A stretch of 20,211 nt of DNA from a virus. The DNA lies in IMG/VR virus record IMGVR_UViG_3300029448_000581, positions 1 through 20,211 of that record. The stretch is one strand, 5' to 3'. The notes below the pieces were generated by a model. It worked only from the letters and a program-made list of their open reading frames with translations. It made no database searches and was not told the origin of the DNA. Both the position numbers and the translations under genes were made by a program. Each line of letters starts with the position of its first letter. The first letter of the stretch is position 1. This document shows positions 1 through 17,935 of the stretch, in pieces.

Positions 1-498
1 TGTAACAAACGTGTAACAGGGCCTTCAACCACGGGCAACGGACCTTCATCCATAAATAATGCCCTATTATCAACGGTTTACGGCCTATGATTCACGGCCC
101 ACGGCGCTGCGTCCGTCGCCCGCCGGGCACTTTGTTACAACTTTCGGCATTTTTGTTACAACTTTGACCACGGACCTGTAACAACGGACAACGGACCTTA
201 GTCCTTGATTCTTATACACTTTTTCCTTGCCCAACAGGCAATACACCTATTTTGTAACATGTTACAGGTTACAAGCCGACATCCCCATATATTAAAAAAC
301 GAGAAAACGCATATTGACTATAGCTGTACCCCCCTTTGTAACATGTAACATCTGTAACATCCTTGTTTTTAAAGGACTTTTATAAATCTATCCACATACC
401 AACATGTAACACCTTTTTTAAAAGGCTAATGTTTTCAATCACTTAGCCACTCCCCGTGTTACACGTTTGTTACACCTTTACCCCCTAAACCTGTAACA
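1..498. repeat. Cluster of 14 TGTAACA / TGTTACA heptamers (iteron-like)
   Basis: TGTAACA occurs at 1-7, 12-18, 177-183, 253-259, 337-343, 344-350, 353-359, 405-411 and 492-498. Its reverse complement TGTTACA occurs at 133-139, 154-160, 260-266, 457-463 and 468-474. Copies at 253-266 join head to head into a perfect 14-bp palindrome, and 337-350 are two abutting direct copies. Spacing is irregular, unlike classical plasmid iterons. The density is far above chance and suggests binding sites for a phage or host protein. Another copy lies at 17941-17947, just after the repressor gene. Confidence 0.75.
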
Positions 499-508
499 AA
501 TTGGCCTC

Positions 509-528
509 TTGTCAAACATTTTTGACAA
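509..528. promoter_or_regulatory. 20-bp dyad overlapping a consensus -35 hexamer
   Basis: TTGTCAAA (509-516) and TTTGACAA (521-528) form a perfect 8-bp inverted repeat with a 4-base spacer. The right arm contains TTGACA (522-527), the sigma-70 -35 consensus. No good -10 box is visible at 16-18 bases, so the promoter part is weak. The symmetry and position, about 130 bases before the first + strand gene, fit a repressor operator. Confidence 0.5.
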
Positions 529-536
529 CATACACA

Positions 537-545
537 TGTGAATAA
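537..545 (-). promoter_or_regulatory. DnaA-box-like site
   Basis: TGTGAATAA on the + strand reads TTATTCACA on the - strand, which fits the relaxed DnaA box TTATNCACA. It lies 36 bases from a perfect box at 582-590. A one-mismatch copy, CTATCCACA, is at 388-396. Confidence 0.45.
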
Positions 546-581
546 CTCCGCTTTCACTCCCAATTCCCCTTATTTCCTGAC

Positions 582-590
582 TTATCCACA
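582..590 (+). promoter_or_regulatory. Consensus DnaA box TTATCCACA
   Basis: This is an exact match to the strong E. coli DnaA box, in the non-coding region before the first gene. The window also encodes a stand-alone DnaA domain IV-like protein (13553-13879) that could recognise it. Confidence 0.55.
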
Positions 591-619
591 CCTCTATCCC
601 TCACGGGAGTAGAGGTTTT
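591..619 (+). terminator. Terminator-like hairpin in the leader of the first gene
   Basis: CCTCTA (591-596) pairs with TAGAGG (610-615). The stem extends inward by a wobble pair, one bulged A and three C-G pairs around the loop TCAC, and is followed by TTTT. It sits 38 bases before the start codon at 657. Transcription entering from the control region would meet it first, so it may act as an attenuator or antitermination point. Confidence 0.5.
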
Positions 620-656
620 GCATTACGTAACGTCAATCAAGAAAGGATGACGAACC

Positions 657-1040
657 ATGAATAAAGAACAACGGATCTTAGCCAAACAAGAGTTGATACA
701 TGACCTTGTGACCACCGCAATTGAAGGTGGCTCCAATCACTGGCTAGCAATGTTTGCCATGGGCAACGCCAAAGGCGAAGAAGTATCTTACCTAGTACCG
801 TTCTTAAGGATCGAAGGTCTCACCACCGCTTTTATAACCGAAGATGACTTCGAAAGGCGTATCTCCACCCCACTCCAGATGCCAGGTACAGCTCCTTATA
901 TAACAGCCCTACGCAAGTGGACGTTATGGAGATTCAACCGTAAGCAACCAATCACTGACTGGAGTGACGTCGACTTCGACGCAGAAGATGCTGATGTGTT
1001 CATGCAATTCGCGCTGCTCGGAGACATTGTCTACGGGTAG
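657..1040 (+). CDS. Phage protein of unknown function (127 aa)
   Basis: This soluble, rather acidic 127-residue protein is the first gene of the + strand series. AAAGGA lies about 9 bases before the ATG and supports this start. The segment IEGGSNHW near residues 23-30 resembles a motif in small phage proteins that have EGG followed by an aromatic or polar stretch. That family has no function known to me. There is no signal peptide, membrane helix or catalytic motif. A terminator-like hairpin follows at 1048-1073. Being first after the control region suggests an early-expressed gene. Confidence 0.75.
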   Translation: MNKEQRILAKQELIHDLVTTAIEGGSNHWLAMFAMGNAKGEEVSYLVPFLRIEGLTTAFITEDDFERRISTPLQMPGTAPYITALRKWTLWRFNRKQPITDWSDVDFDAEDADVFMQFALLGDIVYG

Positions 1041-2778: not shown

Positions 2779-2860
2779 TTATGAAGATCCTAAAACTTGG
2801 ACGACAAATTATGAAAAGGCCAGAGAACTACTAAAGAAAGCTGAAGGTCATGCCTACTAA
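2771..2860 (+). CDS. Very small ORF (29 aa) with a strong RBS
   Basis: ATG at 2771 is preceded by AGGAAGGA (2754-2761). The peptide begins MIDYEDPKTWTTNYEKAREL and ends with a lysine-rich helix. It bridges the 57-aa gene and the Mom-like gene, overlapping both (8 and 11 bases). It may be a real micro-protein or a leader that couples translation into the Mom-like gene. In phage Mu the mom gene is also translationally coupled to a short upstream gene, com, but this peptide lacks Com's zinc-finger cysteines. Confidence 0.5.
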   Translation: MIDYEDPKTWTTNYEKARELLKKAEGHAY

Positions 2861-3491
2861 TGGAAAACTTTTTGTAAAGAAGATACCATCAAAAGATACC
2901 TACTCTTTTTTGTTAAACATCCACTACGCGCAAAGAATCCCTAGTATTAGCCATGCGTTTGGCCTGTTTAAGGGCAAAGATTTAATTGGAGTTTGCACAT
3001 ATGGCACTCCGCCTAGCGCACCATTACGTAGGGGCATATGCGGTGATGGCCATAAAGGAAAAGTTCTTGAGCTTAATCGGTTATGCCTGTCGGACAACAG
3101 GCCGAATTATGCAAGCCAGTTGATCGCAAAAAGTTTAAAAATGCTTCCTCGTCCGTCTATCGTTGTCAGTTTTGCAGACACCGCGCAAAACCATGTGGGC
3201 TATGTCTATCAAGCCACAAATTTTCTGTATTGCGGATTGAGCGCTAAACGCACCGATTGGAAGGTTAAAGGTAAAGAGCATTTACATGGCCAAACGATAG
3301 CAGATGAGTTTCGCGGAGAAAAAAACAGGGCGCAGGCCATGCGCAAAAAATATGGAGATGACTTTTATTTAGCTCCTAGACCCAGAAAACATAGATATGT
3401 CTGCTTCCTTGGAAGCAAAGCAGAGAAGCGAGATCTACTGGCGGTTCTCAGGTATGACATAGAGAATTATCCAAAGGAGCCACGGTTTTGA
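2850..3491 (+). CDS. mom: Mom-like DNA adenine modification protein
   Basis: This 213-residue protein belongs, by motif recognition, to the Mom family. In phage Mu, Mom (231 aa) converts adenine in DNA to N6-methylcarbamoyl-adenine, which protects phage DNA from many restriction enzymes. Diagnostic stretches are GKVLELNRLCLSD near residue 72, NYASQLIAKSLKML near 88, and VSFADTAQNHVGYVYQATNF near 107. They match the acetyltransferase-like core in both order and spacing. The C-terminus is basic (LAPRPRKHRY), which fits DNA contact. The start ATG overlaps the preceding 29-aa ORF. The stop overlaps a TTG start at 3488. Expected timing is late or tightly controlled because modification is toxic, but no Dam-site control region like Mu's is evident. 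The family call is firm; the exact chemistry is inferred. Confidence 0.85.
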   Translation: MPTNGKLFVKKIPSKDTYSFLLNIHYAQRIPSISHAFGLFKGKDLIGVCTYGTPPSAPLRRGICGDGHKGKVLELNRLCLSDNRPNYASQLIAKSLKMLPRPSIVVSFADTAQNHVGYVYQATNFLYCGLSAKRTDWKVKGKEHLHGQTIADEFRGEKNRAQAMRKKYGDDFYLAPRPRKHRYVCFLGSKAEKRDLLAVLRYDIENYPKEPRF

Positions 3492-3670
3492 CAAAACAGC
3501 AGAAGATAAACATCCAAACCTATTACGATCCGAAACCTATTCCGATCCGAAGATTTGACTGGGAAGCCGTTAATTATGACACGTTGGATTACGACAGCGT
3601 TACAGGATTTGGCGCAACAAAAGAAGAAGCAGTAGCTGATCTGATGGAGCGTCTTGATGAACTTGATTGA
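3488..3670 (+). CDS. Small phage protein, TTG start (60 aa)
   Basis: The TTG start is supported by AAAGGAG at 3473-3479, 8 bases upstream, and by overlap with the Mom-like stop codon. The C-terminal half (GFGATKEEAVADLMERLDELD) has the pattern G-x-G-x-T-x-x-E-A-x-x-D-L seen in many short phage proteins of unknown function. The N-terminus is rich in Tyr, Pro and Arg. It is likely a cytoplasmic early protein. It overlaps the next small gene by 14 bases. Confidence 0.7.
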   Translation: MTKQQKINIQTYYDPKPIPIRRFDWEAVNYDTLDYDSVTGFGATKEEAVADLMERLDELD

Positions 3671-3830
3671 TGATTATTTAGATTGCTATCACTGCTCATG
3701 GCATGGATGGCATGACGAGTTACAAGCCAAACCTGACCATCGAGGTCACAGTTACTACTGCCCTGAATGCGGGGTTGCTGACTTCACCAAGATACACCCC
3801 GATGACATAGAGGAGTTCATCAATGGATAA
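3657..3830 (+). CDS. Small CxxC zinc-ribbon-like protein (57 aa)
   Basis: The frame starts at ATG 3657 with GGAG at 3646-3649, 7 bases upstream. The protein begins MNLIDDYLDCYHCSWHGWHD and later has CPECGV, giving two CxxC pairs about 27 residues apart. That is the usual layout of a zinc ribbon that binds one zinc ion. It overlaps the genes on both sides, and the next gene starts in a different frame at 3823. Small zinc ribbons in phages often bind host enzymes or nucleic acid, but no specific role can be read here. Confidence 0.65.
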   Translation: MNLIDDYLDCYHCSWHGWHDELQAKPDHRGHSYYCPECGVADFTKIHPDDIEEFING

Positions 3831-4032
3831 AATAGATGTGGGTGAGTATTGCGTACAATGCTTTCACTCTGTTGCACTGGGATTCGGTCGATTCGTTAAC
3901 CGAATCCCAGCCGACCGTTGTGACGGTGCAAATTTTCTTCACTTAGACGGCTGGCTTTGCGAAGAGTGTTACCATGTAGACGAAAAAGATGTGACATTTT
4001 CTAGGGACCTCGAACCAGGTCAAATGATCTAA
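3823..4032 (+). CDS. Small cysteine-rich protein (69 aa)
   Basis: AGGAG at 3811-3815 lies 7 bases before the ATG. Two CxxC pairs (CVQC near residue 9 and CEEC near residue 46), with one further Cys between them, predict a structural zinc site. It lies directly behind another two-CxxC protein, but the two share no obvious sequence beyond the cysteines. Its stop is followed by an 83-base gap containing an operator-like palindrome (4047-4061), so it probably ends the operon that began at 2054. Function unknown. Confidence 0.7.
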   Translation: MDKIDVGEYCVQCFHSVALGFGRFVNRIPADRCDGANFLHLDGWLCEECYHVDEKDVTFSRDLEPGQMI

Positions 4033-4046
4033 GAATGAAAATTAAT

Positions 4047-4061
4047 ATTACCTGAACTAAT
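4047..4061. promoter_or_regulatory. Intergenic palindrome site 2 (ATTACCTGAACTAAT)
   Basis: This is an exact match to ATTASCNNNACTAAT. It lies in the 83-base gap between the 3823 and 4116 genes, 54 bases before the next start codon, where an operon promoter or operator is expected. Confidence 0.6.
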
Positions 4062-4115
4062 AAAAAAGGATTCTTCCGGAGAAAAAGAAATATTTGGCAT
4101 ACAAAGGAGTACCAA

Positions 4116-4352
4116 ATGACCATATACCTACCCCTCACCCAACTTGACATGGACCGTTTAGGACCAGCCATCGCAGGACGAATCATGGCCACAGTCCAAG
4201 AGGCCCTTGACCTTAAATGCCCGGTCAATAACCCCATTGTCGAACACATAATCGAGATCAAAGAACAACTGCTCAGTGAACGCTACTCGGAAGGCTACAA
4301 GGACGCGATGGATATCGCAAACCACGAAGCCTACAAAAGCGGAGCCTTCTAA
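4116..4352 (+). CDS. Hypothetical protein (78 aa)
   Basis: AAAGGAG at 4103-4109 gives a clear RBS 6 bases before the ATG. This 78-residue protein is mostly helical by composition, with the segment NNPIVEHIIEIKEQLLSERY in the middle and EGYKDAMDIAN near the end. It has no membrane segment and no recognised domain. Its TAA shares one base with the ATG of the next small membrane gene. It is the first gene after operator-like site 2 and probably begins the transcript leading into the MoxR-VWA module. Confidence 0.7.
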   Translation: MTIYLPLTQLDMDRLGPAIAGRIMATVQEALDLKCPVNNPIVEHIIEIKEQLLSERYSEGYKDAMDIANHEAYKSGAF

Positions 4353-4474
4353 TGGTCTCGATATTCCTCACTGGATTTCTATTTTCTTTAGGCATCCTTT
4401 TCGGGGCATTTGTTGCTGCATTATTTTTCTTCGCAGTCATGCAAGCCACAGAAGACTTGAAAAAGCTTTTCTAA
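4352..4474 (+). CDS. Single-helix small membrane protein (40 aa)
   Basis: The ATG overlaps the previous stop (TAATG), and GGAG at 4341-4344 is 7 bases upstream. The product is almost wholly one hydrophobic helix (residues 2-29, rich in Phe, Leu, Gly and Ala) followed by a short charged tail (ATEDLKKLF). This predicts an inner-membrane peptide with one transmembrane segment. It ends 28 bases before the MoxR gene. No function can be assigned; a holin role is unlikely in this early region. Confidence 0.6.
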   Translation: MVSIFLTGFLFSLGILFGAFVAALFFFAVMQATEDLKKLF

Positions 4475-4502
4475 CCACGCATTAAACAAAAGGAATTATA
4501 AC

Positions 4503-5513
4503 ATGCGTACTATCAAACCATCCCATCTTGCGGACGAACTGTTCGCTAATGCACGTGCCGGTCTGGCCACCATGATCTGGGGTCCACCAGGCATTGGTAA
4601 GTCTCAAATTGTTTACGAGATGTCAACCAAGCTCAACGCCAAACTCTTCGAGTTACGCGCAAACCTCTTCGACCCTGTCGATGTACGTGGCGGTCTCAAA
4701 GTTGTTGAGCAGGAAGACGGTACATACAAGACACGCTACGGTGTGCCTGAAGATTACCCCGACACAGACTATCGCGGTAACGTCGTGCTCTTTATCGACG
4801 AACTTCCAAACGCACCTAAAGCTACGCAGAACGCACTGCTTCAGCTGATCCTTGATCGTAAAATCGGCACTTATCAGCTGCCACCTAACACAGCAATCGT
4901 TGCTGCGGGCAACCGTGCAGCCGACCGTGCAGCCGTCAACGAAATGCCAACTCCTGTACGTAATCGCTTCTCGCACTATGAACTGGGGGTCAACACTGAC
5001 GACTGGTGCGCTTGGGCTATGCGTAACGATATTAGCCCCGCTATTATTTCGTTCATTCGTTATCGCCCAACGCTGCTCCATTCTATGGACACTCGTGAGT
5101 ATGCGTTCCCAACGCCTCGTAGCTGGGAGATGGTCGACAAAAAAGTCCCGCACATGCCAGCCGATGATGACCGTCAGTTCTATTCACTGGCGTCAGTTGT
5201 CGGTGACAGCGCGGCTGGTGAGTTCTTGGCATTCAAGCGCATCGCAGATGAGCTGCCCGACCTCGACAAAATCATCCAGAAACCAACGCACATGAAAGTA
5301 CCGGTCGAGCCATCGACTCTCTATGCGTTGTCCGGTGCACTCGCAGCAAAAGTAACTGCTCTTAACTTTCCCAAGATCATGGCTTATGCCAATCGTATGC
5401 CGCCTGAGTATCAGGTGATTCTTGTACGTGATGCTCTTGCCAAAGACCGATCACTAACCACGACCCCTGTCTTCCAATCGTGGGCACAGGAAAACGCACA
5501 AGCGTTGCTTTAA
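4503..5513 (+). CDS. MoxR-type AAA+ ATPase
   Basis: This 336-residue protein has a Walker A motif GPPGIGKS (27-34), Walker B VVLFIDE (Asp99-Glu100) and an AAA+ core. The sensor-1-like VAAGNR follows near residue 138 and a PVRNRF segment near 152. These are features of the MoxR family, chaperone-like ATPases that work with VWA-domain partners to remodel or insert cofactors into target complexes. The partner is probably the VWA protein at 6230, two genes downstream, as in RavA-ViaA. AAGGA lies about 8 bases before the ATG. The transcript appears to continue through 5538 and 6230. The target in phage infection is unknown. Confidence 0.88.
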   Translation: MRTIKPSHLADELFANARAGLATMIWGPPGIGKSQIVYEMSTKLNAKLFELRANLFDPVDVRGGLKVVEQEDGTYKTRYGVPEDYPDTDYRGNVVLFIDELPNAPKATQNALLQLILDRKIGTYQLPPNTAIVAAGNRAADRAAVNEMPTPVRNRFSHYELGVNTDDWCAWAMRNDISPAIISFIRYRPTLLHSMDTREYAFPTPRSWEMVDKKVPHMPADDDRQFYSLASVVGDSAAGEFLAFKRIADELPDLDKIIQKPTHMKVPVEPSTLYALSGALAAKVTALNFPKIMAYANRMPPEYQVILVRDALAKDRSLTTTPVFQSWAQENAQALL

Positions 5514-5537
5514 TCACAGCCAACCAAGGAGGTAACT

Positions 5538-6233
5538 ATGGCTACAGTAAGAATGTCTCAGCAACTCAGAGATCGAATCCAAAATCTAGCGATGGAGGAT
5601 TACGACAGGACAGTCCAATCAACTGACAAACGACGTATTGAAATCGACGAGATCATTGCCGGTAACTGGGCAGATTGCCCATACATACGTGATCTCAAAA
5701 CATTGCAAACAACTCTCGATACCGTTTCTGCAGGTATGAACACACGAGCATTTCAATTCGTAAACGATGAACGCAATGCATCTGCTTATTTTGATAAAAT
5801 TGATGTTTATATTGGGCCTAACACATCTTATTCTTTTGGACTCACAAACATCGGTGAGTTTCGTGGTATAGGTCACGACCTTATTCGCTTCAAGACTCTT
5901 AAACTAGTACCTGAAGACTTTGGCGAGCCGCATGCCGCACGGCTTAGGGAACTCATTACTACCCACAAAGAAGGTTTGGCTAAAGCACATGAAAAGCGCC
6001 GCAACTTTTTTAAAGGTGTTCGTGATCTTCTTAGCCAATGCAACACTGTCAAGCAGCTACTAACCGCATGGCCTGCAGCTGAGAAATTACTTCCAACTGA
6101 TGTCATTCACAAGATGCACCAGAAAGTCGAGCGCAAGTTTGATGCTGATGCAGCCAAGGCTCGTGCCAACTTCGACCCAACAGAAGCCAACACCACCATG
6201 TTGACCGCCGCACTATTGGGAGACGTTGCATGA
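5538..6233 (+). CDS. Protein of unknown function between MoxR and VWA genes (231 aa)
   Basis: A near-ideal AAGGAGG (5526-5532) precedes the ATG by 5 bases, predicting strong translation. The protein is hydrophilic, with helical N- and C-terminal thirds (for example KAHEKRRNFFKGVRDLLSQ) and a middle part rich in Asn, Tyr and Gly. I do not recognise a domain. Its stop overlaps the next start as ATGA, so it is translationally coupled to the VWA protein. Its place between the ATPase and the VWA partner suggests an adaptor or substrate of the pair. That is inference from position only. Confidence 0.75.
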   Translation: MATVRMSQQLRDRIQNLAMEDYDRTVQSTDKRRIEIDEIIAGNWADCPYIRDLKTLQTTLDTVSAGMNTRAFQFVNDERNASAYFDKIDVYIGPNTSYSFGLTNIGEFRGIGHDLIRFKTLKLVPEDFGEPHAARLRELITTHKEGLAKAHEKRRNFFKGVRDLLSQCNTVKQLLTAWPAAEKLLPTDVIHKMHQKVERKFDADAAKARANFDPTEANTTMLTAALLGDVA

Positions 6234-7499: not shown

Positions 7500-9311
7500 A
7501 TGAAAACACTCGTTCTCGACTTCGAAACCTTCTTTGATCGTGGTTATTCACTAACAACAATGACCACCATGGAATACGTAGCCAGCCCCCTGTTCAAAGT
7601 GTGGGGGGTTGGTGCTCAGATTCTCGGTGAAGAAGACGTACCCCAATGGTACGGTGAAGATGAAGTTGAAGACTTCCTCCATTCAATTGACTGGAGCCAA
7701 GCTAACGTCATCTGCCACAATACCCACTTCGATGCATACATCCTTACTCAGTATTATGGATGTGTGCCTGCCTACTACTATGACACTGCAGCCATGAGCC
7801 GTGGTCGTTACCCAGGTCAAAGTGCCAGACTTGCAGCCCTTGCTGAAAGACTGTGGCCTACCAGTGAGACCATGCGTAAAGGTGAAGAACTGGTCACGGC
7901 CAAAGGCATTCGAGATCTGCCACCGGACATTGAGGAATCAATCGCTGGCTACTGCATACAAGACGTCGAGCTCACTCGCGCAGCCTTCGAACGTATGATC
8001 GCCAATTATCCTGAGTCCGAGTTGGATCTCATCAACCTGACCTGTCGTATGTTCGTCGATCCAGTCATGATGCTGGACCGTGAACGACTGACCACGTACC
8101 GTGATGAAGTGACCAAGGCCAATGAAGCAGCTATCGAAGCTGCAGGTATTGATCGCAAAGTGCTCTCAAGCAACCAGCAGTTCTCACTGTATATCAAGGA
8201 AGAGCTGGGCATCGATCCTCCTACCAAGCGTAGTCCTACAACCGGTAAACACATACCGGCATTGGGTAAGAACGATGCAGGGTTCAAGCAAATGGCTGCC
8301 ATGTACCCCCAGCATAAACACATCTGGGAAGGCAGGCGTGTAGTGAAGTCCCGCATTGCCGAGACTCGTGCACAACGGTTCCTAGATAGCGCCAATGAGC
8401 AAGGGCTTATGCCCATGCCTCTTCGTTACTATGCAGCACACACTGGCCGCTTTGGTGGTACCGAGAAAATCAACGTACAGAACATGCCGCGTGGCAGTGA
8501 GTTACGTAAGTCTCTCATCGCACCGCCAGGCCACCTTGTATATGTAGCTGACTTGTCGAACATCGAAGCTCGTATGCTGGCATGGATCGCACGGGAGGAT
8601 AAGCTTCTTGAATCATTCCGTCAGGGTGATGATGTTTATTCTAACTTTGCCTCAGTTATCTACGATTACCCTGTCAATAAACACGACCACCCAACAGAAC
8701 GCTTCGTCGGTAAGACAGCTGTGTTGGGTCTTGGTTATGGCATGGGTGGAGACAAGTTCGGAGCAACCCTGCGATCAGGTGCAGCCGGCCCTGTCATTGA
8801 TATCGATGACAGGAAGGCCAAGGACATCGTCGATACTTATCGCGGAACTTATGGCGGCATACCTGACTTCTGGAAGAAAGCAGACTGCCTTTTACTGGAC
8901 ATGCAATCGAACCTAGCGACAGGCTCCGTTTACGGGCCGTTAACCGTTGGTAAACGAAAATTGTTTCTACCCAACGGTATGGCTCTCAGATACCACGAAT
9001 TAAGCGGGACAACTTTCCATAACGGACGTGTACGTGAGAACACTTACGGCGGAAAACTGACCGAGAACATTGTTCAAGCTCTATCACGGATCGTCGTTAC
9101 CGATGCGTTGTTGCGGATTGAAGAGTACCTCAACCCGATTGGCGGACGCGTCGCACTAACCGTGCACGACGAGGTAGTTTGTGTTGCCCCGGATGAACAT
9201 CCTGATAAGGTGATGGAACGCATTATCGAACTGATGTGCATCCCGCCTAGTTGGGCATCTAACCTTCCTCTCGATGCTGAGGGTGGTTATGCCCCGGAGT
9301 ACAGTAAATGA
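7500..9311 (+). CDS. Family A DNA polymerase with 3'-5' exonuclease domain
   Basis: This 603-residue Pol I-type replicative polymerase lacks the 5' nuclease domain, as phage enzymes do. The N-terminal proofreading domain has Exo I LDFE (Asp7, Glu9), Exo II NTHFD (Asp78) and Exo III Y-x3-D (Tyr151, Asp155). The polymerase domain has motif A ADLSNIEAR (Asp351, Glu356), motif B with Arg401, Lys405 and Tyr413, and motif C VHDE (His556, Asp557). The active site is complete. At the place of E. coli Phe762 it has Leu409, a variant that others have linked to temperate phages. It follows a 59-aa gene by two bases and ends overlapping the CsrA-like start. It would copy the phage genome with the primase-helicase at 9546. 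Confidence 0.95.
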   Translation: MKTLVLDFETFFDRGYSLTTMTTMEYVASPLFKVWGVGAQILGEEDVPQWYGEDEVEDFLHSIDWSQANVICHNTHFDAYILTQYYGCVPAYYYDTAAMSRGRYPGQSARLAALAERLWPTSETMRKGEELVTAKGIRDLPPDIEESIAGYCIQDVELTRAAFERMIANYPESELDLINLTCRMFVDPVMMLDRERLTTYRDEVTKANEAAIEAAGIDRKVLSSNQQFSLYIKEELGIDPPTKRSPTTGKHIPALGKNDAGFKQMAAMYPQHKHIWEGRRVVKSRIAETRAQRFLDSANEQGLMPMPLRYYAAHTGRFGGTEKINVQNMPRGSELRKSLIAPPGHLVYVADLSNIEARMLAWIAREDKLLESFRQGDDVYSNFASVIYDYPVNKHDHPTERFVGKTAVLGLGYGMGGDKFGATLRSGAAGPVIDIDDRKAKDIVDTYRGTYGGIPDFWKKADCLLLDMQSNLATGSVYGPLTVGKRKLFLPNGMALRYHELSGTTFHNGRVRENTYGGKLTENIVQALSRIVVTDALLRIEEYLNPIGGRVALTVHDEVVCVAPDEHPDKVMERIIELMCIPPSWASNLPLDAEGGYAPEYSK

Positions 9312-9502
9312 TGGGCCGTCTTGTTTTGTCCCGACACCTCGATGAATCTGTCGTCCTTCACAAGGACGGCGAGGTGATTGCCGAGGTCAAATATACAAAG
9401 TCAAATGACAATGGTTCTATTCGTCTCACTTTTTCTGCAGATACTGATATTGAAGTTGACCGGCAGGAGATTTTCAAATTACGGTACCCGTCTTTAGTCT
9501 AA
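9308..9502 (+). CDS. CsrA/RsmA-like RNA-binding regulator
   Basis: This 64-residue protein aligns with CsrA along its length: LVLSRHLDESVVL (beta 1-2), a middle with one or two extra residues, and DIEVDRQEIFKL at the end. CsrA dimers bind GGA in RNA loops near ribosome-binding sites and alter translation or stability. Of the key RNA contacts, the first Arg of the N-terminal RR pair is kept, the second is His, and the late Arg of V-x-R-x-E-I is kept. The ATG at 9308 overlaps the polymerase stop, and GGAG at 9296-9299 is 8 bases upstream. A phage copy could redirect host mRNA use or tune phage translation. The call is by motif and size. Confidence 0.82.
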   Translation: MMGRLVLSRHLDESVVLHKDGEVIAEVKYTKSNDNGSIRLTFSADTDIEVDRQEIFKLRYPSLV

Positions 9503-9545: not shown

Positions 9546-12029
9546 TTGCAGGTTGTTTTTTTAGAGTCGCCGAACGGAATTCGGCTGACTAAAACGATTA
9601 GTCCGAACGGGACAAAGTCGTATCCCAATGCAAAGAACGTAACGTCTCACCACTATAAGGTGCCCGATCTAGAAGACTTCGAGCACCTTCTGCGTAAACA
9701 TTCCAAGCAGGGACACTGCCTATTAAAAGGACCGCTTCGTCGTCGACTGCATAATGAGAGCAGAGCAGGTGCAGGTGATCGTAATTCATATGCCGAATAC
9801 ATTGTTCTGGATCTCGATGGTGTAACCATCCCCGGTTATAACCTGTCATCGACACTGACCGACGCTGACATGACATACTTAGCAGAGCAGTTCATTCGAA
9901 CTATGCCTGCCCAGTTCCATAACGTCAGTTATATCGTGCAAGCCTCAAGCAGTCTTGGTCTTAAAGGCAACCGCATATCGATACATCTTTACATGATGTT
10001 AACCATGCCGTTGCCCGTTAAGAGCATCAAGCTGTGGCTCAAGCACATGAACCACACAGTGCCGTTGTATCAAAATCAACTGGAGCTATCTGCGACAGGG
10101 CAAGCACTCAAGTATCCGCTTGATCCGTCGGTTGCAGACAACTCAAAGCTTATATTCATCGCGCCCCCTGACTTCACCGAAGCAGGATTAGATCCGTTCA
10201 CTGACCCTGAACATCGGATCGTGCGCGTGGACCGTGGACAACCATCCGTGGACCTTACTCCGGTGATCTCTGAGATTAACCCTGAGCGAGTGCACCAGGA
10301 CGGTAGCGCCATAAAAGAAAAACTTAGAAAACTAATAGGTCTTGGCAAACGTAGCGCCAAAACACAGACAGTCACCATCTCAGATGAGACAGTCGAGGTG
10401 CTACTTAACCCAGACAAAATGACGATATCAGTTTCCGATACGTCATCTGCCCCGTACATCCGTTGCAACATTAACAGTGGTGACAGCAACGCTTACTACT
10501 TCAATGTCGACAACCCGACATACATGTTCAACTTCAAAGACGAACCGGTCTTTGAGATCGAGAAGGCAGACCCTGACTTCTATCGTTACATCTTTGATAA
10601 GTTTAAGCATACCGAAGCCGGTAAGAAGGAACCGCTACGACCTGTAGTACTTCGCGACTTCTATACGGATACGTATTACAACGGCTTGTTCGATCCTAAT
10701 CAGGACCAGTTCAGTTCAGATTACCCACTCACGCCGACGTCACGTAACAGTATCGATTCGTTTATGCGAAGCCATGGACGTAGTGAACCTGACTTCATTC
10801 CTGACGCGAAGGTGGTCTTTGATCCAACATCTGAAGACACCAGCGTCAACTTCGACAAAGTCCCATACTTTGTTAATACCTATACGCGCACGCCTTATAT
10901 GCTTAAAGCTGTTAAGCCCGATGTGCCCTTGTCGTATGGCAATGCAGTGTTGCTAAAAAGTCACTGTCCGCTCATTCATACGCTCATCTACCATATGGTG
11001 GGTAATGGCGATGCTGAATATGAGCACTTCTTAAACTGGTTGGCACACATCTATCAAACTAAAACCAAGTCCATGACCGCATGGATCTTGGGTGGTGTGC
11101 CGGGTACGGGTAAAGGTGTGTTCGTCAACAGAGTGTTAAGGCCTTTGTTTGGTAGCGAGCACGTCACCATGAAAGCCCTTGAGAACATCGAAGAGCAGTA
11201 CAACTTGTATATGCGATCGTCCCTATTCCTCGTGGTTGACGAGTTCCGCATGTCTGACTCACGCGGCGGTACAGTTCGCATGGCAGACAAGCTCAAGAAT
11301 CAAATCACTGAGCCGACTGTAACTATCCGTGCAATGCGTACGAACCAGGTCGAACAAAAGAGTTTTACGAACTTCCTGTTCCTGACCAACCGCCCTGATG
11401 CAATCAAGATCGAGGCTGGCGATCGTCGCTATAACGTAGCGCCCCGGCAGGAAGAGAAGCTGGAAGTCGTACACCCCAAGCTTGTTGCCAACCTTGATGG
11501 TCTAAAGAAAGAACTTAAGGCGTTCGCCGGCGTGCTCGCTTCGTATCAAGTAGACACACGCATGGCTCGTACCTGTATGAACAATGCAGCCAAAGTAGAT
11601 ATGCGCTCTATCACCATGTCTGTCTTTGATGAGTTCGCTCACAACCTACAAGTCGGCGACATCTCTATCTTTGAAGATGTGTTGAACATAGAACTGACCA
11701 ACACATTTGACGCTAACAAGATTACGACAGCTCAACGCCTTATCAAGACGTGGATCTCTGATGCTAAAAAAGATATTCGCAGCGTTATACCGCCCGAACA
11801 TCTTCGTATCGTTTACCACGTGCTTACCGAACACAGTCCGCAGATTCCAATACGCCAGTTCAACAAGCTGCTCGATCGGTCAGGGCTCAAGAGTAAGCCT
11901 CAACGTGGTGGTGGCGAAGGCAAGATCATTCGTGGTCTTGGCGTCGTATGGACTACCGACGGAGACACTATCGACCGCCTTATCAATAATTACTTCGAAG
12001 TAGGAGATAGGTCTTTACTAAGGGCGTAA
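9546..12029 (+). CDS. PrimPol-SF3 helicase fusion (phage primase-helicase)
   Basis: This 827-residue protein joins two replication activities. The N-terminal part has the archaeo-eukaryotic primase pattern: D-h-D in VLDLDG (Asp89, Asp91), S-x-H (Ser145-His147) and a later Asp in YPLDPS (Asp193). The C-terminal part is a superfamily 3 helicase: Walker A GGVPGTGKG (Lys523), Walker B LVVDEF (Asp565-Glu566) and a FLFLTNRPD motif C. It would unwind phage DNA and make primers for the polymerase at 7500. The TTG start is supported by GGAG (9535-9538), 7 bases upstream, and by an in-frame stop directly before it. The middle 300 residues match nothing I recognise. Two palindromes of the shared operator type lie just upstream. 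Confidence 0.88.
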   Translation: MQVVFLESPNGIRLTKTISPNGTKSYPNAKNVTSHHYKVPDLEDFEHLLRKHSKQGHCLLKGPLRRRLHNESRAGAGDRNSYAEYIVLDLDGVTIPGYNLSSTLTDADMTYLAEQFIRTMPAQFHNVSYIVQASSSLGLKGNRISIHLYMMLTMPLPVKSIKLWLKHMNHTVPLYQNQLELSATGQALKYPLDPSVADNSKLIFIAPPDFTEAGLDPFTDPEHRIVRVDRGQPSVDLTPVISEINPERVHQDGSAIKEKLRKLIGLGKRSAKTQTVTISDETVEVLLNPDKMTISVSDTSSAPYIRCNINSGDSNAYYFNVDNPTYMFNFKDEPVFEIEKADPDFYRYIFDKFKHTEAGKKEPLRPVVLRDFYTDTYYNGLFDPNQDQFSSDYPLTPTSRNSIDSFMRSHGRSEPDFIPDAKVVFDPTSEDTSVNFDKVPYFVNTYTRTPYMLKAVKPDVPLSYGNAVLLKSHCPLIHTLIYHMVGNGDAEYEHFLNWLAHIYQTKTKSMTAWILGGVPGTGKGVFVNRVLRPLFGSEHVTMKALENIEEQYNLYMRSSLFLVVDEFRMSDSRGGTVRMADKLKNQITEPTVTIRAMRTNQVEQKSFTNFLFLTNRPDAIKIEAGDRRYNVAPRQEEKLEVVHPKLVANLDGLKKELKAFAGVLASYQVDTRMARTCMNNAAKVDMRSITMSVFDEFAHNLQVGDISIFEDVLNIELTNTFDANKITTAQRLIKTWISDAKKDIRSVIPPEHLRIVYHVLTEHSPQIPIRQFNKLLDRSGLKSKPQRGGGEGKIIRGLGVVWTTDGDTIDRLINNYFEVGDRSLLRA

Positions 12030-13381: not shown

Positions 13382-13556
13382 CTACGCCGGCATGGTTGCT
13401 GCTCTCATCGGCGGTTTGTTTGTTTCCGTTGTCTTGTTTGTATTACGCAAGACCATCTCCCGTGACGAACCAACCATCGTAACCGAACACGCCAACTTCA
13501 AAGAAGGTAAGTACATACCTTCCGTCAAACTTCAGTGGGTTAGAAAACAACCATGA
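13245..13556 (+). CDS. Phage membrane protein (103 aa)
   Basis: Two or three transmembrane helices are evident: ITGILAALGLLLLIFKLG near the N-terminus, then a long hydrophobic stretch from AITSFLVMTFAGSYAGM through GLFVSVVLFVL. A hydrophilic tail of about 30 residues follows and ends WVRKQP. I chose ATG 13245 (GGAAG about 10 bases upstream) over the in-frame ATG 13221, because the product then starts MFITGIL, like small phage membrane proteins of this type. Its TGA overlaps the start of the DnaA-like gene, so the two are coupled. It would sit in the inner membrane; the role is unknown. Confidence 0.75.
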   Translation: MFITGILAALGLLLLIFKLGIRKVIAFDIPVDIAITSFLVMTFAGSYAGMVAALIGGLFVSVVLFVLRKTISRDEPTIVTEHANFKEGKYIPSVKLQWVRKQP

Positions 13557-13879
13557 TGACATCCTTTGCCAAAGAAATTACAGCCATGGTTTGCTTAATG
13601 CGTGGGCTACCTCGTCAAGAGGTAGTCTACGGCGCAAAGACAATCCCACTTAGTAGAGCCAGGTGGTTCATTTGGAGACTGCTGCGTGAACGCGGCTACT
13701 CATATTCGAAGATCGGCAACATGTTTGGGATGCACCACACCACAATTATCCACGGCGTTAATACCCTTCAAAAGGAAATGCCCGGCTTCGACTGGGCTGC
13801 AGAACTAGGAAAGTTTACAGATGGCAACGATAAGGACTCGGACAAAATATCCGAAGAACGTAAAACAACCGGCACCTAA
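13553..13879 (+). CDS. Stand-alone DnaA domain IV-like DNA-binding protein
   Basis: Residues 33-75 (SRARWFIWRLLRERGYSYSK, then IGNMFGMHHTTIIHGVNTLQ) match the C-terminal helix-turn-helix of the replication initiator DnaA. The signature H-T-T motif that reads the DnaA box is included. The ATPase domains are absent and the whole protein is only 108 residues, with an acidic or polar tail. It could bind DnaA boxes such as those at 582-590 and 537-545, to start phage replication or to compete with host DnaA. The start overlaps the upstream membrane gene's stop. The last 59 bases overlap the next gene. Confidence 0.8.
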   Translation: MMTSFAKEITAMVCLMRGLPRQEVVYGAKTIPLSRARWFIWRLLRERGYSYSKIGNMFGMHHTTIIHGVNTLQKEMPGFDWAAELGKFTDGNDKDSDKISEERKTTGT

Positions 13880-14511: not shown

Positions 14512-15876
14512 ATGAGCATCCCACCACCCTTTTCGCATCAGTCAAAAACAACGGACTTCATACTCAACAATGAACGCGTTCTTATCACCTCTGATCCGGG
14601 CACTGGCAAAACCCGCAGCGTTATTGATGCGTTTGTCCAGCAAACAAAAGAAAAACCAGGTCGCTTACTGGTCCTCGCTCCCCTATCTATCTTGCAACCA
14701 TCGTGGGGTGATGACATCGAGAAGTTTGCACCCGACCTCACATACTCTGTTGCACTATCCAAAAACCGTACCAAAGAGTTCCTCAAGAACACGGACATCT
14801 GCATCACTAACCACGACGCTGTGAAGTGGATTACCAAGAACATGCATGTGCTAGAGGGCTTTACCCATCTGTGCATCGACGAGTTCACCGCGTTCAAGAA
14901 CAAAGACAGCCAACGTAGTAAGGCAATGCTCAAAGTTGCCAAACACTTTGACAACCGTATCGCCATGTCTGGTACGCCAAACAGTAACGGCATCCTAGAC
15001 ATCTGGCATCCAACCTTGATCGTAGACGACGGACAACGGCTCGGGCACCGTTTCTATTCGTTCAGGCAGAACGTATGCACAGCACACTTCAATGGCTTCG
15101 GCCAGGAGTGGGTTGAGAAAGACTCTGCCAGAGAGATCGTTGCTGCAGCGATCAAAGACATCAACATACGTTTCGAGTTGGAGAGCTGTCTGGATATGCC
15201 AGAGCAGACCACCACCGAACGGACTGTTGAGTTACCACCTGCAGTACTCAAAGCCTATCGCGACTTCGCAGAAGACTCTGTCCTGTATACCAAGCAAGGT
15301 ACAGTCAATGCCGTTCACGCTGGAGCACGGACAAAGAAGCTTTTGCAAATGTGCACGGGCGCTGTGTATGACGAGGACGGTGAAGTGGTGAAGGTCCACG
15401 ATCAACGCTACGACCTTGTCATGTCACTGGTCGAAGAACGTGAGCACAGTCTGGTTGCATTCAATTGGACACACGAACGTGACTGCCTAACAGCTAAGGC
15501 CAACAAGCTAGGTATCTCATACGGCGTTATCGATGGGGCCACCCCCGTCAAGAAACGCAAAGAGATCGTCGACCGTATGCAAGCCGGGCAGTTACAAGTT
15601 GTCTTTGCCCATCCGCAATCAGCTGGTCACGGCCTGACATTGACTCGGGCAACAACAGTTATCTGGGCATCGCCCACCTACAACGCTGAGTACTACCAGC
15701 AATTCAATCGTCGAATCTATCGTGCGGGTCAGAAAAAACGCACGGAGATCATACACATTCAGGCACTCAATACGGGTGAACCAGGTGTGTATGAAAAATT
15801 GGAGGGCAAGCTCACCAAGATGGAAGACTTGCTTACCACCCTAACCAAACTCAACAGCCTACGGAGAGCAGCATGA
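14512..15876 (+). CDS. SNF2-family DEAD/DEAH-type helicase
   Basis: This 454-residue superfamily 2 ATPase has motif I DPGTGKT (28-34), a DEAH-box variant CIDEF (Asp123-Glu124), motif III AMSGTP near 155, and motif VI QFNRRIYRAGQ (397-407). The final RAGQ signature is typical of SNF2 proteins, which move along double-stranded DNA without strand separation. Phage copies lie in replication or recombination blocks, as here. A weak GAGAAAG precedes the ATG. The stop overlaps the next start as ATGA. A role in fork remodelling or displacement of bound proteins is inferred. Confidence 0.9.
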   Translation: MSIPPPFSHQSKTTDFILNNERVLITSDPGTGKTRSVIDAFVQQTKEKPGRLLVLAPLSILQPSWGDDIEKFAPDLTYSVALSKNRTKEFLKNTDICITNHDAVKWITKNMHVLEGFTHLCIDEFTAFKNKDSQRSKAMLKVAKHFDNRIAMSGTPNSNGILDIWHPTLIVDDGQRLGHRFYSFRQNVCTAHFNGFGQEWVEKDSAREIVAAAIKDINIRFELESCLDMPEQTTTERTVELPPAVLKAYRDFAEDSVLYTKQGTVNAVHAGARTKKLLQMCTGAVYDEDGEVVKVHDQRYDLVMSLVEEREHSLVAFNWTHERDCLTAKANKLGISYGVIDGATPVKKRKEIVDRMQAGQLQVVFAHPQSAGHGLTLTRATTVIWASPTYNAEYYQQFNRRIYRAGQKKRTEIIHIQALNTGEPGVYEKLEGKLTKMEDLLTTLTKLNSLRRAA

Positions 15877-16238
15877 ACCTCAATGACCTGATCAAACGTC
15901 GCGCCGAACTCAAGCACGAGATTGACGCAGCCAATGCATTACTAAAGAACCTGAAAGGAGAACAAACTGACATAGACACACAGCTTATGCGCAAGATGGA
16001 TGAGGAAGAACTCACCCGTACTGCCAACAATGACGCGTCTGTATCAATCAACACAGACACTGTCCCCGAGGTAGTCGATTGGGACGCCCTGTACACCCAC
16101 ATTCTGGAACAGCAGGACTTCTCACTTATCCAGCGTCGTGTTTCATCGACTGTATATAAAGAGCTTCTCAAGCTAGGAATTACAGTTCCGGGGTTGCAAC
16201 CCCGCGAAATTCGTCGCATCAACTTTAGATCACTCTAA
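15873..16238 (+). CDS. Phage protein with N-terminal coiled coil (121 aa)
   Basis: Residues 1-45 (LIKRRAELKHEIDAANALLK and following) form a predicted coiled coil. Residues 65-121 hold a more conserved-looking segment, VDWDALYTHILEQQDFSLIQ followed by RRVSSTVYKELLKLGITVPG. This kind of C-terminal module recurs in phages beside replication genes, with no function known to me. GGAG lies 6 bases before the ATG, which overlaps the SNF2 stop, so they are translationally coupled. The coiled coil suggests an oligomer or a partner of the helicase. An inverted repeat surrounds the stop codon (16229-16245). Confidence 0.75.
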   Translation: MNLNDLIKRRAELKHEIDAANALLKNLKGEQTDIDTQLMRKMDEEELTRTANNDASVSINTDTVPEVVDWDALYTHILEQQDFSLIQRRVSSTVYKELLKLGITVPGLQPREIRRINFRSL

Positions 16239-16245
16239 GAGTGAT
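16229..16245. repeat. Perfect inverted repeat around a stop codon
   Basis: ATCACTC and GAGTGAT flank the TAA that ends the 121-aa gene, giving a 7-bp stem with a three-base loop. No T run follows, so it is not a normal terminator. It may stabilise the mRNA end or be an operator. Confidence 0.45.
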
Positions 16246-16255
16246 TCATCTACCA

Positions 16256-16294
16256 ACTTAACGACTTAACGATTTAACAAAGAGAGATTTAACA
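16256..16294 (+). repeat. Tandem octamers before the 16295 start codon
   Basis: ACTTAACG (16256-16263) is repeated directly (16264-16271), then as ATTTAACA (16272-16279), and once more as ATTTAACA (16287-16294) after AAGAGAG. The last copy abuts the ATG. The AT-rich, unstructured leader may aid translation or bind a regulator. Confidence 0.55.
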
Positions 16295-16960
16295 ATGGCT
16301 AATGCAGCACTCGCAATTATCAATCCCGTCCCAGCACACATCACCAAAGGCAAAGGCCGTGGTAACGAGGACATCACTGCAGATCACCTCACAATCCCAC
16401 GTATCAAGCTTCTTCAGAAAATGTCTGACGAAGTCGATCGTCACCACCCGAACTATATTGACGGGGCCAATGACGGTGACTTCATGAACAGCCTCACTCG
16501 TGATATCTACGGTCAAGAGATCTACGTGGTCAGCATCAAGTTCAAAGATGAGCATGTTGTCTGGCGCAAGCGTGACGCAGGTGGTGGTCTACTGGGTAGC
16601 TTCAGCACTTTCAAAGAAGCACAGGCTGCTGTGCAAGCCGAAGACAAACCAGAAGACTATGACATCAACCAGACACACAGCCACATCTTGCTGTTGAAGG
16701 ACCCAGAAACTGGTGAGCTTTCACGTCCAGCGATCATGGACTTCTCTTCATCGAAGCTCCGGGTATCAAAGAACTGGAACGCTCAGATCCTCAACATAGG
16801 TGGTGACCGTTTCGCAGGTCTGTGGAAACTCAAAGCCGTTTCTGTATCCAACAGTTCTGGTAAATCATGGATGAACCTTGAAGCCAGTTTTGTAGGCTGG
16901 ACTACCAAGGAAGATTACAAAGTGGCAGAGGGCTATTACGAGTCCTTTGCTGCCGAGTAA
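16295..16960 (+). CDS. Possible phage ssDNA-binding or replication-accessory protein (221 aa)
   Basis: This 221-residue protein opens with a short tail, then DHLTIPRIKLLQKMSDEVDR, the segment FMNSLTRDIYGQEIYVVSIK, and a beta-rich C-terminal half ending in acidic residues. Proteins with this N-terminal pattern occur in many phages beside polymerase and helicase genes. An ssDNA-binding role has been suggested for similar proteins. It is plausible here because no other single-strand-binding protein is visible in the window and the C-terminus is acidic. The start has only AAGAGAG as RBS, within a repeat-rich leader. The function is inferred, not demonstrated by motifs. Confidence 0.72.
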   Translation: MANAALAIINPVPAHITKGKGRGNEDITADHLTIPRIKLLQKMSDEVDRHHPNYIDGANDGDFMNSLTRDIYGQEIYVVSIKFKDEHVVWRKRDAGGGLLGSFSTFKEAQAAVQAEDKPEDYDINQTHSHILLLKDPETGELSRPAIMDFSSSKLRVSKNWNAQILNIGGDRFAGLWKLKAVSVSNSSGKSWMNLEASFVGWTTKEDYKVAEGYYESFAAE

Positions 16961-16965
16961 CATTC

Positions 16966-17415
16966 ATTAACGAGCATAGTTTCATACGCTCGATACATCG
17001 GGGTCTTTCCAGCGAAGTCTTTTGCTGGAAGATCCACGACTCATTTGCCGGTGGAGTCCCTGACGCTTTGTACATGGGCTCCGCCGGTTCTTTATGGGCT
17101 GAGTATAAATATATTAAAAAACTACCAGTCCGAGATACGACGCGCCTACGTACGTCGCTATCAGAACAACAGCGCCTGTGGCTCAAGCGGTTAGTCGATT
17201 TTAAACACCAAGCAGTTTTAATCATTGGAGTTGAGGATACGGCTGTTATACTCCGAGACCAATGGCATCAAAATATTACTAAAGCCGACTATCTTAAACG
17301 ATCAATACCTCGCAAAGATGTAGTGCATTGGATTGAAGGAGTTTGCCTACCCAGGAGGGACAGTGGATACCCGAGTAAAAAACCTAAAAAGGATTTGGAA
17401 CCTAAAGAAGAATGA
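16966..17415 (+). CDS. VRR-NUC-like small nuclease with apparent ATT start
   Basis: The nuclease core reads WKIHDSFAGGVPDALYMGSA and then LWAEYKY. The G-x-P-D (Asp33) followed by E-x-K (Glu46, Lys48) is the PD-(D/E)XK active site of VRR-NUC domain proteins. The usual family N-terminus (x-N-E-x-x-F-x-x-x-x-H-R) begins at codon ATT 16966. There is no ATG, GTG or TTG in frame between the upstream stop at 16879 and TTG 17068. Starting at 17068 would delete the catalytic Asp. So either ATT initiates, as in E. coli infC, or the gene is damaged at its start. The alternative is CTG 16897. With ATT the protein has 149 residues. Its end overlaps the repressor by 53 bases. Confidence 0.72.
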   Translation: MNEHSFIRSIHRGLSSEVFCWKIHDSFAGGVPDALYMGSAGSLWAEYKYIKKLPVRDTTRLRTSLSEQQRLWLKRLVDFKHQAVLIIGVEDTAVILRDQWHQNITKADYLKRSIPRKDVVHWIEGVCLPRRDSGYPSKKPKKDLEPKEE

Positions 17416-17935
17416 GATTGGATTTATCCAATCAGAAGTGGCCAAGAAAATTGGTATGACTCAGGGCGCAATAAGTCAGTACCTAAACGAGTTTACTGTT
17501 CTTAACCCTCCAGTGATTATTAAGTTTGCTAATTTTCTCGGCGTTGATCCCCGCGAAATTGACCCTGACATACTAAACTACCTACCAGACGTCGCGACAG
17601 CTAACCTCATCTACAACTGGTCAGACGCTGAAAAAAGGATTGATGAGGCATCAACATCTATTATTTTTCCTAACAAGATGCCTGCCAAAGTCATACGTTT
17701 AGATAAACCCTTGCACTATTCTAACCACGGCACCGAGCTGAAGCTTCCTAAAGGCGCAATTTTGTGGGTCTTAGAAGAAGAACCGAGCTCATTATTTAAA
17801 GACCCGAAATCCACCAGCCTTTGGGTAATTTCTCGTAAAGGTAGCCCTGACTTTGAAGTGGTAAACACTAAACAACTACCTCCTAAATCGTTACTTAAAC
17901 TGAGGTATTTCCTACACGGCGCCCGTTTATTTTAA
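17363..17935 (+). CDS. CI-like phage repressor (XRE-type HTH)
   Basis: The GTG start at 17363 is supported by AGGAGG a few bases upstream and gives 190 residues beginning MDTRVKNLKRIWNLKKNE. That is the typical opening of lambda-type repressors; the earlier TTG 17333 is less likely. Residues 23-48 form the XRE helix-turn-helix (SEVAKKIGMTQGAISQYLNE). The C-terminal region is beta-rich, but I see no S-M motif or paired Lys of the S24 self-cleavage domain. It may dimerise without RecA-driven cleavage. It is on the same strand as the early genes and overlaps the nuclease gene, unlike the divergent order in lambda. It is expected to maintain lysogeny and may bind the shared intergenic palindromes. 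Confidence 0.85.
   Translation: MDTRVKNLKRIWNLKKNEIGFIQSEVAKKIGMTQGAISQYLNEFTVLNPPVIIKFANFLGVDPREIDPDILNYLPDVATANLIYNWSDAEKRIDEASTSIIFPNKMPAKVIRLDKPLHYSNHGTELKLPKGAILWVLEEEPSSLFKDPKSTSLWVISRKGSPDFEVVNTKQLPPKSLLKLRYFLHGARLF

Follow-up and report, generated by a model that had tools for sequence, protein, structure and literature searches.

A probable iteron replication origin at the start of the early region of an uncultured tailed phage

The window analysed here is a complete 20,211-bp viral fragment (IMG/VR virus record IMGVR_UViG_3300029448_000581), which begins with a dense array of the heptamer TGTAACA and its reverse complement TGTTACA. This array was noticed in a sequence-only reading, which proposed an iteron-like cluster and candidate origin with a silencer or superoperator as the alternative. 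We infer, with a probability of about 0.75-0.8, that the array is the iteron replication origin of the phage. The whole explanation, in which a phage-encoded initiator, most likely the primase-helicase encoded at 9546-12029, melts an AT-rich core lying between opposed iteron sets, is placed at about 0.75. The origin proposal is supported by the recurrence of the same layout in relatives of the phage, including the cultured Pseudomonas phage KPP25, by arrays situated behind the primase genes of the distant phages NrS-1, KT1 and H4907, and by a likeness to the origins of phage-inducible chromosomal islands (PICIs).

The TGTAACA array and its putative core

Fourteen exact copies of TGTAACA/TGTTACA start at positions 1, 12, 133, 154, 177, 253, 260, 337, 344, 353, 405, 457, 468 and 492, against 0.08 expected by chance in this stretch (Poisson P ~2e-27), and the other 19.7 kb of the window hold just three more (13213, 13979 and 17941). 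The whole-window total of 17 compares with a mean of 3.1 and a maximum of 9 in dinucleotide-shuffled sequences. The earlier count of 14 heptamers within 500 bases is therefore exact, the 14-bp palindrome TGTAACATGTTACA and the two direct copies that abut at 337-350 are both found as claimed, and the objection that the heptamer might be a common word fails for the phage. The array stretch of ~0.5 kb is non-coding with the exception of a 53-codon chance frame, and the first convincing gene starts at 657; the span 1-656 singled out previously thus comprises the array, DnaA boxes and the leader of this gene. As base 1 is the end of the fragment and lies inside the array, its left edge may be missing. 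The components of the array are as follows.

1-498, no strand assigned: iteron array of 14 exact copies, left side cut by the contig end (exact count and Poisson P)
1-266, no strand assigned: left outer iterons (1, 12, 133, 154, 177, 253, 260), including the palindrome at 253-266
337-359, plus strand: inner left set of three same-strand iterons at 337, 344 and 353 (spacings of 7 and 9 bp)
360-456, no strand assigned: AT-rich core, placed by analogy with relatives; the proposed melting region, in which a further iteron lies at 405
457-474, minus strand: inner right set of two inverted iterons, at 457 and 468
492-498, plus strand: outer right iteron

The core was first placed at 274-336 and was moved to 360-456 on the basis of the strict mirrored-pair test described below and of an orientation rule seen in the relatives, in which each iteron turns its variable half towards the core. 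The AT content is 66% at 360-456, 59% at 274-336 and 53% over the window. Since both gaps are AT-richer than the window, the assignment is not certain, and 274-336 is retained as an alternative core. In the proposed mechanism, the closely spaced, opposed sets of TGTAACA iterons around a core at ~360-456 would be bound by a phage-encoded initiator, and the bound initiator would melt the AT-rich core, from where replication would start.

A count of triple-TGTAACA stretches in viral contigs was also tried and dropped as evidence. It returned at least 119 stretches, yet the control word TGATACA, which has the same composition, gave 87, so that the TGTAACA count alone is uninformative.

Mirrored arrays in related and distant phages

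Relatives were collected via the conserved primase-helicase, which is thus present in all of them by construction of the search. The primase is shared at 47-59% identity by 31 uncultured contigs, and the closest cultured phages by this protein are the Pseudomonas phages KPP25 and phiR18 (31% identity). A nucleotide search with window positions 1-1040 found no match in cultured phages, and the relatives show no clustering of TGTAACA as such. However, an unbiased k-mer scan of the relatives, open to every short word that clusters irrespective of strand, revealed this architecture in about a dozen clades, with 8-14 copies of a clade-specific 7-9-mer in each array. These words include TGTAACA, TGTGCCA, TGTGTGCAG, TGTACCA, TGGAACCA and GTGTAGCAG, and KPP25 and phiR18 have an array of TGTTACGA/TGTCACGA (TGTTACGA being the KPP25 word) at the corresponding place. 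Conservation in related phages, proposed as a check by the sequence-only reading, is therefore observed for the layout but not for the word. The words assigned by the k-mer scan are listed below, together with one mixed array.

TGTGCCA: G002
TGTGTGCAG: G007, G008, L088, L091, L137
TGTGTGTCG: G009
TGTACCA: G012 and its group, L125
TGGAACCA: G016, L029, L079
GTGTACAC: L087
GTGTGCCA: L098
GTGTAGCAGG: L128
Left arm mostly TGTGTGCCA, right arm TGTGTGTCA: L106, 60-380

When mapped with iteron copies carrying at most one mismatch, the arrays follow a common plan of inner iterons 7-13 bp apart, an AT-rich core, inverted inner iterons and further outer iterons. The start-to-start distance over the core is 81 bp in G002, G012, G013 and G019, 92 bp in G016 and L029, 94 bp in G009, 117 bp in KPP25 and 136 bp in G007; the AT-richest 40 bp of the KPP25 core are 93% AT. 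A strict test using exact copies, with two copies 7-13 bp apart, a spacer of 55-125 bp and two inverted copies opposite, finds mirrored pairs in 8 of the 16 array-bearing loci, the window included, and gives zero hits in 40 shuffles of each of the eight positive loci. In the window, the pair at 337/344 stands opposite the inverted pair in 457-474, placed at 458/469 by this test, an arrangement absent from its 40 shuffles. The eight loci in which strict pairs are not found have, as far as their sequences show, a degenerate inner copy, differing arms or a longer spacer. In contigs long enough to show its surroundings, the array occupies the intergenic gap ahead of the early operon and is preceded by a few small co-directional genes, which in turn follow the divergent terminase genes. 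Thus, a layout that is constant while its word differs among distant relatives suggests a probable replication start site that is read by a phage protein.

Arrays of this type are also found beside primase genes in more distant phages. In NrS-1 (AB746912), an array of at least 10 iterons with the word GTGTAAC lies at 17061-17378, directly behind the polymerase/primase gene (14895-17051), and carries the sole exact TTTGGTTA of the record, the published priming sequence of the polymerase (PMC8718748). In KT1, the array (2972-3256) is located beside the end of the primase gene (3251-6064, minus strand), and in Halomonas phage H4907 it lies behind the primase gene at 27833-29296; weaker arrays stand directly behind the primase genes of Serratia phage JS26 and Pseudomonas phage phiH1. 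Dense arrays found blindly, by DNA pattern alone, from TGTAACA and a control word lie for the most part between genes, and 13 of the 30 large neighbours tested are primases or primase-helicases. The annotated hypothetical gene NRS1_29 (17055-17456) overlies the NrS-1 array and may not be a real gene.

Several minor features of the arrays and contigs may be mentioned here. Of some 28 arrays, about 8 have a contig end no more than ~650 bp away, which exceeds the expectation for contigs of such length. Such ends at or near arrays are seen in the window (position 1), G018, G014, L128 and G016 and also in G017, G019 and G020, with several of the breaks falling inside the array; they could reflect either assembly breakage at variable repeats or nearness to genome ends. 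A second repeat family with a 7-bp period (ACGGACC, GTGGTCC or GTGAATC-like units) flanks or interleaves with many arrays, for example at 25-120 and 165-215 of the window, at ~10900-10990 and ~11330-11370 of L040 and at ~12550-12590 of L037 (both as reverse complement), and around 1960-2000 of L005. The only clue to a host comes from three contigs of the family (L079, L080 and L081) found in metagenome-assembled genomes with the conflicting labels Neomarinimicrobiota, Planctomycetaceae and Rhodospirillaceae, and these are probably mis-binned phage contigs.

The candidate initiator and DnaA-related elements

The protein proposed to read the iterons is encoded about 9 kb from the array.

9546-12029, plus strand: primase-helicase with a PrimPol-like N-terminus, a DUF5906/D5-type SF3 helicase and a C-terminal winged helix; proposed initiator
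11781-11951, plus strand: predicted winged helix (residues ~746-802), candidate iteron-binding domain (predicted secondary structure)

It is a D5/SF3 primase-helicase of the NrS-1 kind, with DUF5906 detected at 64.5 bits using Pfam and the NrS-1 polymerase (PDB identifiers 6k9c and 6k9e) matched at an E-value of 9e-23 among proteins of known structure. The AlphaFold model of the protein has a mean predicted local distance difference test (pLDDT) score of 75 and is poor at 537-608. Foldseek searches initiated with this model found NrS-1 and, more weakly, SaPI PriRep1 (PDB identifier 7pds, E 5e-5), a protein of the Staphylococcus aureus pathogenicity islands (SaPIs), as well as poxvirus D5/E5. 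The C-terminal 188 residues, modelled separately (pLDDT 81), have a predicted winged-helix topology. The P4 origin-binding domain and other winged-helix initiators are not among the matches listed for this C-terminal model, which carries no weight either way.

The iteron binder is most likely the phage's own primase-helicase, as judged by analogy with SaPI Rep, which reads such iterons through its C-terminal domain (PMC7581432), and with P4 alpha, which binds origin repeats by a winged helix (PMC4234260), and from the adjacency of arrays and primase genes in distant phages. The protein would act through its C-terminal winged helix, in the manner of SaPI/PICI Rep and P4 alpha. Other candidate binders were discarded: the XRE repressor and the excisionase-like helix-turn-helix (HTH) protein of the phage are not conserved in the relatives, and a role of the DnaA domain IV-like protein described below as a conserved iteron binder was rejected for its presence in a single one of 15 relatives. 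We also note that the primases of L119 and L128 are nearly identical, that the differences in their C-terminal 200 residues fall mostly in the wing of the winged helix, and that the L119 contig has no array.

Elements related to DnaA are found both beside the array and among the genes of the window.

582-590, plus strand: consensus DnaA box TTATCCACA (sequence match)
537-545, minus strand: DnaA-box-like TTATTCACA (sequence match)
13553-13879, plus strand: DnaA domain IV-like protein that may have an accessory role (hit to Pfam Bac_DnaA_C at 36.0 bits, cut-off 31.5)

Together with CTATCCACA near 388, which is one base off a DnaA box, these bear out the consensus box, the two near-matches and the DnaA domain IV-like protein reported earlier, and host DnaA or the phage protein may assist at the boxes within 537-590. 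DnaA-like boxes are over-represented beside the arrays, with 6 of 17 lying at most 300 bp away against 0.74 expected. The support that DnaA lends to the origin in the window does not, however, generalize. Boxes stand beside 5 of the 16 arrays (the window, KPP25, G009, L088 and L091, the last two being close kin), leaving the other arrays without adjacent boxes, and the protein is present in 1 of the 15 relatives searched, viz., G001, in whose own region related words are few and a clear array is lacking; a search of viral contigs for relatives of this protein returned none. As most arrays have no DnaA boxes, DnaA may help at these sites without being a constant part of them.

Competing explanations and relationship to known systems

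Several observations weigh against the explanation that the array is an origin melted by the primase-helicase. The array of the window is not adjacent to the primase gene, and no array was found near the primase in JD001, D63, RHph_X2_24 and Fanboy, or in the scanned parts of phiA008, K296 and CRP-7. The enrichment of primases beside blindly found arrays is modest (13/30 next to dense arrays vs 4/20 next to sparse clusters), though the sparse clusters used as the comparison may include real arrays with degenerate copies. The only clear structural match to the C-terminal domain model is NrS-1 itself (Z 7.1). Covariation between the winged helix and the iteron word, assessed by a partial Mantel-type test with overall divergence removed, is negative (partial r ~0 or below, permutation P 0.4-0.99); with 12-15 phages and hand-aligned words the test is crude, so that the winged helix as iteron reader is neither shown nor excluded. 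In G002 and G012, the cumulative GC skew, suggested earlier as a check, has a turning point at the array, but no such switch is seen in KPP25, KT1 or G007. As the skew in such genomes may also track gene direction, it carries little weight either way and, the results being mixed, was set aside as proof of an origin.

An alternative that retains an origin at this place but changes how it is read is that the iterons are template recognition sites of the PrimPol, with primers started on both strands. NrSPol starts DNA synthesis at a specific template sequence, 5'-TTTGGTTA-3' (PMC8718748), and its recognition sites near the genome centre have been proposed as the origin (PMC7102993). The latter authors count two copies, whereas AB746912 has, by our count, a single exact copy, located inside the array on the minus strand at 17198. 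The NrS-1-like nature of the window primase and the negative covariation result point the same way. However, one exact priming site contrasts with at least 10 iterons in the NrS-1 array, and the multiplicity and close pairing of the iterons resemble protein sites on duplex DNA, which leaves this reading mechanism rather unlikely.

It is unlikely that the array is an operator or superoperator, at which a repressor or early regulator such as the XRE protein (17333-17935) would bind the TGTAACA copies and silence the early operon, as the alternative of the sequence-only reading would have it. The array does lie just upstream of the first early gene, its word is near-palindromic as is typical for sites of dimeric regulators, and the phage encodes both an XRE repressor and an integrase. 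Yet arrays persist in relatives and do not co-occur with the repressor gene; the alternative is weakened because a match to XRE exists in just one of the ~20 relatives, and none of them has a match to the integrase. Furthermore, silencing does not need fixed mirrored pairs around an AT-rich core, and the arrays of NrS-1, KT1 and H4907 lie behind the primase gene and not at an early promoter. A packaging site (pac/cos), with repeats bound by the small terminase subunit, appears quite improbable, although terminase genes lie 1-4 kb from the arrays in relatives, terS is found beside the NrS-1 array and, in phiH1, after the primase and the weak array, and several contigs end in or near an array. 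These contigs break at varied points within the arrays with no single fixed end, terS is kilobases away in H4907 and in the window family, and the AT-rich core and primase adjacency fit replication better. A cluster of short repeats close to where the early region begins would also suit a parS-like partition centre serving a plasmid-like prophage state, but the window phage encodes an integrase, arrays occur in relatives in which no integrase is matched, and no ParA/ParB family member is present among the proteins scanned, not all short open reading frames (ORFs) being included; such a centre is highly improbable.

An iteron origin in these phages has its closest parallel in the PICIs, including the SaPIs. 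The array of the window matches the published PICI origin layout (PMC6092414), a helicase linked to a primase acts as the PICI initiator and recognizes the iterons through its C-terminal domain (PMC6092414, PMC7581432), and the window primase-helicase is structurally similar to PriRep1, as noted above. In contrast to these satellites, the genomes described here belong to tailed phages that encode structural proteins and a DNA polymerase of their own, and in the families of the window and KPP25 kilobases of DNA separate the array, which stands where the early region begins, from the gene of the initiator. The PICI-type location of the origin directly 3' of the initiator gene is hence not seen in the window but is observed in NrS-1, KT1 and H4907. 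Phage P4, with its ori/crr and alpha protein, similarly combines primase, helicase and winged-helix domains in one protein with origin repeats (PMC4234260); however, P4 has a Toprim-type primase, whereas the window protein is AEP/PrimPol-like by fold. The NrS-1 polymerase is the closest solved homologue of the window primase and its GTGTAAC array holds TTTGGTTA, but clear sequence homology covers the helicase and C-terminal part, and in NrS-1 the array sits next to the gene, where it overlaps a hypothetical ORF of the annotation. Iteron plasmid origins likewise bring together iterons, an AT-rich region and DnaA boxes, but the iterons of the window are mirrored and not all direct, the DnaA boxes are optional, and no plasmid-type Rep occurs among the proteins scanned here.

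According to the PICI study, the layout of these origins was shared by no other known replicon (PMC6092414), and we found no prior description of iteron origins in tailed phages with such primases in the open-access literature, subscription papers lying outside the search. The present proposal would extend a layout called peculiar to PICI satellites to ordinary tailed phages. We tentatively suggest, at somewhat less than even odds, that these arrays represent a broad, fast-changing class of tailed-phage origins, in which phages with D5/SF3 primase-helicases keep the layout constant but change the iteron word between clades; the word differs even between the two arms of one array (L106). If this is true, the origins would be phage-specific locks that limit cross-replication between co-infecting phages. 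For most environmental tailed phages no replication origin is known, and the layout, being tied to D5/SF3 primase-helicases, could provide a sequence rule for locating the probable origin of uncultured phages without a conserved motif. It also yields proposed origins in culturable phages, viz., KPP25 (26.2-26.9 kb), NrS-1 (17.06-17.38 kb), KT1 (2.97-3.26 kb) and H4907.

The first convincing gene of the window, at 657, belongs to phrog_2355, and downstream of the array follow a MoxR/VWA pair, a family A DNA polymerase, the primase-helicase, a RecB-like exonuclease, an SNF2-type helicase, a Pam3 gp34-like protein, the XRE repressor, the HTH protein and the integrase. The replication genes are common to the ~20 relatives examined, which also carry tail-type and terminase genes; among them, the HTH protein is matched in two and the DnaA domain IV-like protein in one. 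A Mom-like DNA modification protein (phrog_1384) is encoded at 2850-3491 and was not found in the relatives examined. Between the polymerase and the primase, a 64-codon ORF at 9308-9502, CsrA-like by eye, is conserved in 11 relatives.
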